Shown here one piece after another: positions 22,947 to 26,829 of a stretch of 29,694 nt of DNA. The translations under genes and the position numbers were made by a program. The notes beneath the pieces were generated by a model. It saw only the letters and a list, made by a program, of their open reading frames with translations, was not told the origin of the DNA and did not search any database. The stretch is from IMG/VR virus record IMGVR_UViG_3300024255_000107, positions 1-29,694 of that record, one strand, 5' to 3'. Each line of letters begins with the position of its first letter. The stretch's first letter is position 1. The DNA is from a virus.

Positions 22947-25058
22947 ATGAACACTCAGGAAGTCAAAGGCACTCTCGCCAAACTGCTTGCTACGGAGAAT
23001 CTCACTGTAGAGCATCGTAAGGTCAGTACTGCCTGCTTTGATGTTGATAGTAGGACTCTCATCCTTCCTATTTGGAAGACTGCCTCTAACACGGTGTATG
23101 ACCTTCTGGTAGGGCATGAGGTGGGACATGCTCTCTACACACCTAATGTGGACTTCGGTAATGTATCAAAGGCGTTTGTGAATGTCTTAGAGGACGCTCG
23201 TATTGAGCGTATGATGAAAGTAACATATCCTGGTCTTCGACGTTCTTTCTTTGAAGGTTATAGACAACTATGGGATGCAGATTTCTTTGGAGTTAAAGGT
23301 GAAGATCCTGAAACTCTTGCACTAATTGACCGTATCAACCTTTACTTTAAGGGTAACCCCAACATTCCATTTAAACCTGAGGAGATGGTATGGGTTGAAC
23401 GTACAGAAAATACTAAAACGTTTGAAGACGTTACTACTCTGGCTAAAGAACTGTTTGAATATTGCTGTGAAAAGCAAGAAGAAAAAGAAGAAGATATGAT
23501 GATGCCATCATCATCCGATGGTAGTAACCAAGCAGACCGTCAAGAAACAGTTGATACATGTTCTGAAGACGGTGAGGAGAAAGATGAGTATATGACCCAT
23601 GAAGAGATGCTTGAAGAAGCATCTAAACGGGAAAAGGATAATTCGGACCTTGAAACACCTTCTTATCAAGGTGGTGCTGATGAAACTAAATCCGTTACTG
23701 ATGATGCATTGACAGAGGCACTAGAAACTCTTGTAGATGACAATTCTAAGGAGTGGGTATATCTTACAATTCCCGATCCTAAAGTAGAAGACTATATTGT
23801 TCCGTTCAAAACCATTCAAGAAAATCTTGAGGGTCATTTTTACAATCCTATTGTAGATAGTCAGTGGCAAGAGCATGTTCATTATTCTGTAGTTCACTAT
23901 CAAGAATTTAAAAAATCTGCTCAGAAGACTGTTAACTATCTGTGCAAGCAATTTGAAATGAAGAAGTCTGCTGATGAATACAAACGTGCGGCAACTTCTA
24001 AGACAGGTGTTCTTGATACTAACAAACTACATACTTATAAATTTAATGATGATATCTTTAAAAAGATAACTACTGTCCCTGAAGGTAAGAGTCATGGTCT
24101 AGTAATGTATCTTGACTGGTCTGGTTCAATGCAGAATCAATTACTTGATACTCTAAAGCAAACTTATAATTTGATTTGGTTTTGTAAAAAATGTGGCATT
24201 CCTTTTAGAGTATATGCTTTCCAGTCTGGATTTGGATACAATGATATCAATTCAGATCCCCCTTCAGAAGTAAAGAATGAACTGAGTCTTGCTTCGGACT
24301 TTCGTTTGTTTGAGTTCTTTTCTTCTCGTCAAAACAAACAGTCTCTAGACAAGTCTATGCAACTTGTATATACTCAAGTGTTTGCTATGCGTGGGTGGAG
24401 ACTTATTCCCCACAGTCCATATACTCTTGGTGGTACTCCTCTTGCTGAAGCGATCTACTGTACACGCAGTATCGTAGATAATATTAAACGTGTTGAGCGT
24501 ATTAGTAAAGTAAATGTTATCTGTTTGACTGATGGTGAAGCAAATCCAATAAGTTATATCCAGAAGTTTCCTGAAGATCATTCATATTATCCTGGTCAAT
24601 ATCGATATCAGTATCTTTGTCATACTCGGGGACTTATATTTTTTCTCCGTGATCCTAAAACAGGTTACACTCGTAAACTCTCAAATGACCCTAGGATTAC
24701 CACGAAAGAAATTGTGTCTTTCTATCGTGAGATTACAGATTATAATTGGATTGGTATTCGTATTTGTGCAAAAACTGACTTAACAATACTAGTGCGTCAG
24801 TTTGCTATTGATCAAGTTGATGAAATTGACAGGCAATGGAAGAAGGAAAGATTTGCTTCCATCAAAGGTAATATGGGATTTACTGAAGCATTCTTTATGC
24901 CTGATAAAAATATTGGTGATGGGACTCAAGATATTGAGGTTAAAAATAAAAAAGAAGTTGCAACTAAAGCAGAACTCACTCGTGCATTTAAAAAGCATAT
25001 GGGTTCTAAAATGACAAACAAGACCATCCTTAACGCATTTATTGAGCAAATCGCATGA
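22947..25058 (+). CDS. CobT-like protein: zinc-metallopeptidase motif plus VWA (MIDAS) domain
   Basis: 703 residues. N-terminal part: LLVGHEVGHALYT contains HExxH (His57, Glu58, His61), and VNVLEDARIERMM supplies a likely third ligand (Glu82); NxLExxRIE is also a CobT-family trait. Residues about 173-260 are an acidic, disordered linker. The C-terminal part begins like CobT (GVLDTNKLHTYKFNDDIFKK) and carries a complete metal-ion-dependent adhesion site: DWSGS (Asp390, Ser392, Ser394), Thr497 in GGTPLAEA, Asp529 in LTDGEANP. VWA proteins of this type work with a MoxR/CobS AAA+ ATPase, and one is encoded at 25759 behind a matching promoter. Whether it serves cobalt chelation or another target is unknown; it may also be annotated as a peptidase. 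Confidence 0.85.
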   Translation: MNTQEVKGTLAKLLATENLTVEHRKVSTACFDVDSRTLILPIWKTASNTVYDLLVGHEVGHALYTPNVDFGNVSKAFVNVLEDARIERMMKVTYPGLRRSFFEGYRQLWDADFFGVKGEDPETLALIDRINLYFKGNPNIPFKPEEMVWVERTENTKTFEDVTTLAKELFEYCCEKQEEKEEDMMMPSSSDGSNQADRQETVDTCSEDGEEKDEYMTHEEMLEEASKREKDNSDLETPSYQGGADETKSVTDDALTEALETLVDDNSKEWVYLTIPDPKVEDYIVPFKTIQENLEGHFYNPIVDSQWQEHVHYSVVHYQEFKKSAQKTVNYLCKQFEMKKSADEYKRAATSKTGVLDTNKLHTYKFNDDIFKKITTVPEGKSHGLVMYLDWSGSMQNQLLDTLKQTYNLIWFCKKCGIPFRVYAFQSGFGYNDINSDPPSEVKNELSLASDFRLFEFFSSRQNKQSLDKSMQLVYTQVFAMRGWRLIPHSPYTLGGTPLAEAIYCTRSIVDNIKRVERISKVNVICLTDGEANPISYIQKFPEDHSYYPGQYRYQYLCHTRGLIFFLRDPKTGYTRKLSNDPRITTKEIVSFYREITDYNWIGIRICAKTDLTILVRQFAIDQVDEIDRQWKKERFASIKGNMGFTEAFFMPDKNIGDGTQDIEVKNKKEVATKAELTRAFKKHMGSKMTNKTILNAFIEQIA

Positions 25059-25198
25059 AGTGTAAAGTACAACTATTCAAAGCAGGAACAGTTTTCGATG
25101 AAATTGTTATTGCTACAGACTATGACGATGCTAGGAAAGTTGCCTTGGCACGAAACCCTGGAGCAACTATTGTGGGAGTAACGGCAGTATTTGAATGA
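25055..25198 (+). CDS. 47-residue hypothetical protein
   Basis: ATGA overlaps at both ends (with the CobT-like stop and with the next start at 25195). The product, MKCKVQLFKAGTVFDEIVIA then TDYDDARKVALARNPGATIV, looks like a compact beta-beta-alpha-beta unit; the phrase ATDYDDARKVALARNPGA resembles small proteins that follow in many cyanophages. Lies between the CobT-like gene and the 170-residue gene. Function unknown. Confidence 0.6.
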   Translation: MKCKVQLFKAGTVFDEIVIATDYDDARKVALARNPGATIVGVTAVFE

Positions 25199-25707
25199 AC
25201 ATCTTTGTCACCGACGAATCACCTTGGCGGTCTGCTGCTGTCCTACCAGACAAGCACATCGTCAAGATGCCTCTAGAGACCTGCCAGATGCTCGCTATAG
25301 TCGCCTCAGACAAGTGGGGACATGGTTATGGTACTTTGCCTAAGGCAGACGGTACACCTTATGCTACAGAGAAGGGAGCATTCCGTAATCACCCTTGCAC
25401 CAAGTGGGCAAATGAGACTGTAGCAAACTCTAGATGGTTGCTTGAGCATGGTATGGCATTATGTGAAGAGTACTTTACTCGGTACGGTAAAATCCATACT
25501 TGCTTTAAGACTCTCCTTGCTGCTGATGAAATCATTCCTTATGTAAAATATAAAGATCATACTCCTTTTGTCTTTGCAGGACCTGACGAGTATAAGTATG
25601 ATACCAGCATTGATATCTTCACTGCTTATAAGATGTATGTTGCATCTAAACCATGGGTGGCATCCAACTATCTGCGTGTGCCAGATAAAAAACCGTCCTG
25701 GGTTTGA
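25195..25707 (+). CDS. Conserved phage protein of unknown function (HxxKMxLE...NHPCTKW...RYGK family)
   Basis: 170 residues. Recognisable conserved blocks: MNIFVTDESPWRSAAVLPDK, HIVKMPLETCQMLA, NHPCTKWANET, WLLEHGMALCEEYFTRYGKI, YLRVPDKKPSW. I have seen this pattern in many phage proteins without a proven function; the invariant His, Asp, Lys, Glu and Cys residues suggest an enzyme acting on nucleic acid or nucleotide, but that is inference. Some annotations may call it a pyrimidine-dimer glycosylase; it does not resemble T4 DenV by eye. It is coupled to the upstream small gene and ends just before the CobS-like promoter. Confidence 0.6.
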   Translation: MNIFVTDESPWRSAAVLPDKHIVKMPLETCQMLAIVASDKWGHGYGTLPKADGTPYATEKGAFRNHPCTKWANETVANSRWLLEHGMALCEEYFTRYGKIHTCFKTLLAADEIIPYVKYKDHTPFVFAGPDEYKYDTSIDIFTAYKMYVASKPWVASNYLRVPDKKPSWV

Positions 25708-25758: not shown

Positions 25759-26829
25759 ATGCCTCGTAAGTCTGAAGTCACTACAGCAACCCTTGTCAAT
25801 CATCTGACTGAACTGTATGGTTGTGAAGTTGATACTATGCAGGTTCGTAGTTCTGCAGAATCTCTTGGTGTATCATACGCTACTGCTGCTAAACGACTTG
25901 ACTCTTATAAATCTGGTAGGGGTAAATGGAACCTAACTGTTCAAGAAATTGAGCAAGCATATGAAGCACCCTCTGCAATACCCGTAGATAATTACATTCC
26001 TACAAAAGATGATTCCTATGTCCCTTTTGGTAACTATGCATCTGTTCGCAAAGTTATCACCTCTAATAAATTTTATCCTGTCTTTATCACAGGTCTTTCA
26101 GGCAATGGTAAGACCCTCTCAGTTGAGCAGGCATGTGCAACAGCAAAGCGAGAGTTGATTCGTGTCAACATCACAATCGAAACTGATGAAGACGATCTTA
26201 TTGGTGGTTTTCGTCTTGTCAATGGTGACACTGTTTGGCATAATGGTCCAGTCATCGAAGCTCTGGAACGTGGAGCTGTACTTCTTCTAGATGAGATTGA
26301 CCTAGCATCTAATAAAATCTTGTGCCTGCAATCTGTGCTGGAAGGTAAGGGTGTCTTCTTGAAGAAGACTGGTAAATATGTAACTCCTAAGGAAGGATTC
26401 AATGTTATTGCAACTGCAAATACTAAAGGTAAAGGCAGCGATGACGGTCGCTTTGTTGGAACTAATATTCTCAACGAAGCATTCCTCGAACGTTTTCCAA
26501 TTACATTCGAGCAAGATTATCCAACTGCATCGGTAGAAGAAAAAATTCTACGAAATATGGGTTGTGATACTATTTTTGCAGAGAACCTTGTGAAGTGGGC
26601 AGGTGTCATTCGCAAGACTTTCTTTGACGGTGGTGTTGATGAAGTAATCACAACACGTCGTTTAGTGCATATTGCACAAGCGATGGAGATTTTTAGTGAC
26701 CGTCTTACTGCTGTCAACATGTGTATCAATCGTTTTGATGACGACACTAAACAATCTTTCCTAGATCTCTATACAAAGGTTGACGCTGGAGAAGATTCCG
26801 AGTACAATGAAGACGAAGAAACCATTTGA
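25759..26829 (+). CDS. cobS: CobS-like MoxR-family AAA+ ATPase
   Basis: 356 residues. The N-terminal 65 residues look like a helix-turn-helix-type domain (SSAESLGVSYATAAKRLDSY). The AAA+ core follows: Walker A GLSGNGKT (112-119), Walker B VLLLDEID (174-181), sensor 1 VIATANT (216-222), and arginine-finger candidate LERF (243-246). The acidic C-terminus (DAGEDSEYNEDEE) resembles a flexible tail. CobS works with CobT and CobN in aerobic cobalt insertion; cyanophages carry cobS widely. No CobN is visible here, so the CobT-like protein at 22947 is the natural partner. Ribosome site AAAGGA at 25748-25753. It ends three bases before the DUF3310-like start. Confidence 0.88.
   Translation: MPRKSEVTTATLVNHLTELYGCEVDTMQVRSSAESLGVSYATAAKRLDSYKSGRGKWNLTVQEIEQAYEAPSAIPVDNYIPTKDDSYVPFGNYASVRKVITSNKFYPVFITGLSGNGKTLSVEQACATAKRELIRVNITIETDEDDLIGGFRLVNGDTVWHNGPVIEALERGAVLLLDEIDLASNKILCLQSVLEGKGVFLKKTGKYVTPKEGFNVIATANTKGKGSDDGRFVGTNILNEAFLERFPITFEQDYPTASVEEKILRNMGCDTIFAENLVKWAGVIRKTFFDGGVDEVITTRRLVHIAQAMEIFSDRLTAVNMCINRFDDDTKQSFLDLYTKVDAGEDSEYNEDEETI

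Follow-up and report, generated by a model that had tools for sequence, protein, structure and literature searches.

A core gene of marine cyanophages is often filed as part of a vitamin B12 enzyme, and the protein family to which it belongs carries the name 'peptidase'. Which of these labels describes the gene product? Peptidase genes were mentioned by Sullivan et al. (2010), and Liu et al. (2021; PMC8651126) judged the 'peptidase' annotation to be a mistake for CobT. The copy of the gene considered here lies in a 29,694-nucleotide stretch of DNA (IMG/VR virus record IMGVR_UViG_3300024255_000107; termed the window), the rest of which is that of a T4-like cyanophage, with genes for terminase, tail sheath, portal, capsid, UvsY, helicase and gp46. 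A first-pass annotation, made from the letters alone, described the product as a zincin-like HExxH domain joined by an acidic linker to a VWA domain, and the residues that it named (HEVGH at 57-61, Glu82, Asp390, Ser392, Ser394, Thr497 and Asp529) are all found at those positions. The gene, its parts and its presumed partner are as follows.

22947..25058, + strand: open reading frame of 703 amino acids with an ATG start, encoding the zincin-like and VWA protein (phrog_459 'peptidase', CobT-related)
22947..23486, + strand: N-terminal domain, zincin-like by prediction, residues 1-180 (mean pLDDT of the model 90.7; Foldseek matches to metallopeptidases)
23115..23129, + strand: HEVGH, residues 57-61, within helix 48-64 (H57, E58 and H61 invariant)
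23181..23207, + strand: NVLEDARIE, residues 79-87, with the candidate third metal ligand (D83 or E82) and supporting residues, from conservation
23466..23684, + strand: acidic linker, residues 174-246, largely disordered, from composition and prediction
24093..24767, + strand: VWA domain, about residues 383-607, from secondary structure and Foldseek matches to NorD and other VWA proteins
24114..24128, + strand: MIDAS motif DWSGS, residues 390-394, from motif and conservation
24435..24437, + strand: MIDAS Thr497, from motif and conservation
24531..24533, + strand: MIDAS Asp529, from motif and conservation
25759..26829, + strand: CobS-like MoxR/AAA+ ATPase of 356 amino acids, the presumed motor partner (phrog_249; Pfam AAA_5 and CbbQ_C)

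The 703-residue protein matches the phrog_459 profile over its full length (residues 1-703 to profile positions 1-736, E 0, 1063.5 bits). It is matched in 463 phage records, mostly those of Synechococcus and Prochlorococcus phages, and its closest relative, in Synechococcus phage ACG-2014b, is 99.3% identical. A Pfam search with the protein gave no match, PF13203 (DUF2201_N/DUF2201, putative metallopeptidase plus VWA-like) included; no credible relative emerged when PDB sequences were searched, whether the query was the protein or a 52-row profile, and none of the entries in a defence-system library was matched by the protein. The reverse complement contains several stops in the frame of the gene, and small reverse-strand open reading frames are present inside it.

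When this protein is shuffled, a lone HExxH is expected about 2% of the time, and conservation is therefore the deciding evidence on whether the motif has meaning. The zincin proposal had been made with the caveat that the motif might not recur in homologues. It does recur: H57, E58 and H61 are kept in 79 of the 79 IMG/VR homologues covering the site, which were fetched by search patterns lacking the HExxH motif. Furthermore, ten columns are invariant in a 70-row alignment of the N-terminal domain (A29, P41, H57, E58, H61, T65, E82, D83, E87 and G96), whose rows are 14-84% identical to the query protein. A chance HExxH was rejected because of this invariance in the 79 homologues and the 70-row alignment. 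One wider HExxH count is partly ascertained, as one of its search patterns was VGHEVGH, and one pattern of another relative search adjoins the motif; the conclusions rest on the motif-free set and on relatives obtained by other routes. When IMG/VR was scanned with the Methylobacter and Ochrobactrum proteins, no relatives emerged. Judged by sequence conservation, the HExxH site in the cyanophage-type protein is real.

A fold search with the full-length protein was dominated by VWA domains, that of NorD bound to the MoxR-type ATPase NorQ among them, and for this reason the N-terminal domain was modelled alone. The predicted layout comprises a helix, three strands, a single helix (48-64) bearing HExxH and a second helix (75-93) that carries E82 and D83. 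The zincin proposal would also have failed had the model set these residues apart; with HExxH and the candidate ligands on successive helices, neither this condition nor that of conservation refuted it. When this model was compared with the PDB by using Foldseek, the first 21 matches were all metallopeptidase-type folds, individually weak (E 0.2 and up), with selecase, jannalysin, abylysin, ArdC, leukotriene A4 hydrolase, M1 aminopeptidase, myroilysin and PprI represented. In the viral fold library BFVD, the ranks below the protein's own family are rich in SprT, M48 and IrrE proteins, and V5UNV5, which is a phage protein annotated as 'Putative metallopeptidase domain-containing', shows a match in fold alone (E 0.1). 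CobT in PDB 9uka did not appear among the Foldseek matches. The N-terminal domain thus has, by prediction, a zincin-like fold. Minimal zinc metallopeptidases and their relatives (selecase/jannalysin, ArdC, PprI/IrrE and SprT/Wss1) likewise place an acidic helix after the HExxH helix, but the searches revealed no significant sequence similarity between them and the phage domain, which differs also in being fused to a VWA domain and tied to an AAA+ gene. DUF2201_N, a putative metallopeptidase family considered as a bridge, was set aside because it is too rare in the sampled phylum for comparison. Another BFVD entry that matches the zincin-like domain by fold is R4T663, a 355-residue protein of the haloarchaeal virus HHTV-2. 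The cobT of this virus has been reported as a split gene, and the domain may thus function as a polypeptide of its own.

The comparison with zincins upheld the fold that had been proposed, within the weakness of the individual matches, and left Glu82 as third ligand unsettled, since D83 tracks HExxH better. E82 is present in 116 of 117 HExxH-positive rows and also in all 47 HExxH-negative rows. By comparison, D83 occurs in 117/117 positive versus 4/47 negative rows, and N79 in 115/117 versus 2/47. In phage ICP2, position 82 is V, and HExxH and D83 remain. These patterns lead us to lean toward D83 rather than E82, which is a preference and not a proof because the rows are not independent of one another and there are few losses.

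The remainder of the protein also agrees with the first-pass annotation. The linker is acidic (26 Asp or Glu versus 7 Lys or Arg in residues 174-246), and its core is predicted to be disordered, with residues 188-217 and 228-242 below pLDDT 50 in the model. The MIDAS is intact: D390, S392, S394, T497 and D529 are invariant in the rows of the 79 homologues, and a single row of a 150-row set has S in place of T497. The AAA+ partner that had been envisaged is encoded downstream, in the same orientation, in every one of the 83 cyanophage-type loci for which at least 3.5 kb of downstream sequence is available, and in the window it retains both its Walker A (GLSGNGKT at 112) and Walker B (VLLLDE at 174) motifs. 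Among loci of the Rhizobium-phage type, an immediate AAA+ neighbour is present in 30 of 35, and several of the others reflect contig ends or partial matches. The window carries a pyrimidine-dimer glycosylase-like gene in the interval that separates the zincin-VWA gene from cobS (25195-25707; PF03013, E 4e-14), and in Roseobacter phage CRP-810 a pyrimidine dimer glycosylase gene directly follows cobST (locus L172, 5277-5771).

A VWA domain with a MIDAS beside a MoxR-type AAA+ protein is likewise the arrangement of known MoxR-VWA pairs such as NorQ-NorD, and the VWA domain of NorD ranks with the closest fold matches to the phage protein. Unlike the phage protein, the pairs reviewed in PMC7159879 have no N-terminal zincin described. 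We consider it somewhat more probable than its opposite that the two cyanophage genes encode a MoxR-VWA machine with a complete zincin site, which acts as a protease or remodeller in phage DNA replication, recombination or repair. The 703-residue protein would be the substrate-handling half of this two-gene machine. The VWA domain would receive the CobS-like AAA+ ring at its MIDAS, giving a physical complex in which ATP would be spent on presenting or remodelling a substrate protein. Cleavage of the presented substrate would then fall to the zincin, putatively metal-bound and tethered by the flexible acidic linker.

The same parts could also serve a chaperone-like remodeller of complexes that does not cleave its substrate, with the metal at HExxH serving structure or docking. 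Known MoxR-VWA pairs are indeed described as remodellers and not as proteases (PMC7159879). Also, both histidines are missing from cellular CobT and from three phage or phage-plasmid relatives, namely those of an Acinetobacter phage-plasmid (L168, 2984-4906), a Stenotrophomonas phage (L173, 2975-4960) and Pseudomonas phage nickie (L176, 2831-4915). These apparently separate losses left in place the Glu at position 58, the E82 helix, the gene itself and its AAA+ partner, so in these elements the machine can work without the site, and it is this observation that makes the remodeller the strongest rival. In contrast, in motif-bearing sequences the catalytic-type Glu58 varies no more than the two histidines do (117 of 117 HExxH-positive rows), and this residue would be dispensable if the metal had a structural role only. 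On balance we regard remodelling without proteolysis as rather doubtful, and prefer the motor-driven protease.

How, then, does the phage protein relate to cellular CobT? A profile of the cyanophage domain matches IncC-type plasmid proteins at 98% (E 7e-15) and Rhizobium-phage types at 97.5%. Profiles of the IncC type and of the Roseobacter-phage type match cellular CobT at 87% and 95%, respectively, and the direct match between cyanophage and CobT profiles is weak (10.7%). Cellular CobT (PF06213/PF11775, TIGR01651; PDB 9uka) shares with the phage protein the N-terminal framework with E82 and E87, the acidic linker, the VWA domain and the AAA+ CobS neighbour. It differs in having no HExxH and mostly no D83, both of which the phage protein has. 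When the alignment is read by eye, mobile forms with [QR]GF[IV]D-HEVAH stand against RGxAD-[SA]x-AL-[RK] in cellular proteins at the motif, and N[IV]xEDxxIE stands against DAVE[QTS]AR[VI]E in the second helix. At this place HExxH occurs in none of 82 CobT open reading frames (taken from megaplasmids, or from loci retrieved by using Sphingomonas CobT) and in none of 36 strongly matching Pseudomonadota CobT proteins. Thus, the remark in the first-pass annotation that CobT is not known as a peptidase fits every bona fide cellular copy checked. Four weaker chromosomal matches do carry the motif (L332, L333, L335 and L336), and phage and plasmid forms mostly retain it.

In a tree built from VWA columns only, cellular CobT forms one starred clade among HExxH-bearing branches, with five changes of the HExxH label, and one of these reflects a row whose motif contains an additional residue. 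Several long branches leave the deep placements uncertain. Because the tree has no established root, the case for a loss of HExxH in cellular CobT, as opposed to a gain elsewhere, is a parsimony argument. As far as these alignments go, cellular CobT looks like a relative that has kept the framework and lost the active site.

Homology to CobT through such intermediates, together with the CobS-like neighbour, is what speaks for an ordinary viral CobT, which with phage CobS would join host CobN and raise B12 during infection. This is the published opinion (Liu et al., 2021; PMC8651126). However, similarity scores place the phage genes far from the enzyme. A VWA domain with MIDAS does stand beside a CobS-like AAA+ gene, as in CobT, yet the partner scores 66 bits against the CobS profile (cut-off 558.55). 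The 703-residue protein has no match to the CobT equivalog TIGR01651, and its relatives reach 32-179 bits against a cut-off of 759. With scores below the CobS and CobT equivalog cut-offs, and an HExxH unlike cellular CobT, plain membership of the cobaltochelatases was rejected.

The distribution of CobN bears on the same question. No CobN was found in any of 11 phage and plasmid records tested, and an E. coli control genome gave no CobN match, though relatives of the phage protein ride on E. coli plasmids. A CobN-family gene is present in a cyanobacterial control genome, so cyanophage CobST could still act with a host CobN; the large subunit of magnesium chelatase also belongs to the CobN family. 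Seven of the 11 records encode the small subunit of class I ribonucleotide reductase, an enzyme that does not need B12, which also counts against a role in raising B12. An ordinary viral CobT is therefore unlikely in our view, and the phage protein is probably homologous to CobT but not a cobaltochelatase. Among CobT-bearing Pseudomonadota genomes, CobT and CobN occur together in 64 of 84. The other 20 (G014, G022, G081 and 17 others) have no CobN match, and hence even cellular CobST may act beyond cobalt insertion, or these genomes may be incomplete.

The company that the gene keeps points to DNA replication and recombination, not to any identified host complex. In T4-like phages the neighbours are gp46/47, UvsW, UvsY, the sliding clamp and the clamp loader, and members of phrog_459 from T4-like cyanophages and pelagiphage HTVC008M, the window's protein included, share one anatomy and one order with CobS, gp46/47 and clamp. 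Other phages and phage-plasmids have DNA polymerase III alpha (DnaE) and sometimes a sigma factor nearby, and ICP2 has primase and helicase. On IncC plasmids the relative lies beside ssb, bet, exo and a DUF3150 gene (L170, 3951-5747), with no AAA+ match recognized within the 10.7 kb IncC stretch examined. Related domains occur on about 1,635 plasmid records from many hosts, including IncC conjugative plasmids and E. coli plasmids, and relatives are also found in phages of Vibrio, Salmonella, Rhizobium and Pelagibacter. Proteins labelled 'CobT/VWA' in phages and plasmids (SSU5, Rhizobium phages, and IncC, Cupriavidus and Halomonas plasmids) likewise combine HExxH, an N..ED helix and a VWA domain, most with an AAA+ neighbour as here, but their sequences are divergent and their neighbourhoods different. 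A replication role drawn from neighbours is guilt by association, and because cyanophage genomes are densely packed, neighbours need not share function.

This spread also bears on a host-takeover protease, with the same anatomy as in the preferred reading, that would cleave or dismantle a host complex such as the polymerase or the photosynthetic apparatus rather than serve phage DNA metabolism. A substrate outside replication is compatible with all of the results. However, relatives are carried by conjugative IncC plasmids and by plasmids from many hosts, for which shutting off the host would be hard to understand, and the neighbours are genes of replication, recombination and repair. We consider host takeover very unlikely; phage DNA replication, recombination or repair would be the most likely setting of the proposed machine.

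The family and its 'peptidase' name are already known, and the reinterpretation is the new part. The CobT homology seen by Liu et al. is supported; at the level of sequence, the phage form bears a real peptidase signature, which the cellular form lacks. In open-licence papers we found no report of the HExxH site, of its absence from cellular CobT or of the phage and plasmid spread of the intact form.

Why cobS is a core gene of cyanophages has so far been guessed at, and the guesses have revolved around vitamin B12. The gene that constantly accompanies it encodes a protease-type site not seen in genuine CobT, and this offers a different and directly testable answer: with an intact zinc-protease-type site that true B12 enzymes appear to have lost, this core gene may encode a motor-driven protease that serves the copying of phage DNA. 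Given that related domains reside on many plasmids and in other phages, the answer would reach well beyond cyanophages. It is possible, and we propose it tentatively, that phages and conjugative plasmids share an unrecognized class of two-component ATP-dependent metalloprotease, composed of a MoxR-type AAA+ ring and a zincin-VWA protein and active in genome replication or recombination, from which CobST descends by loss of the protease site. If true, this would also hint at the origin of a metal chelatase subunit.
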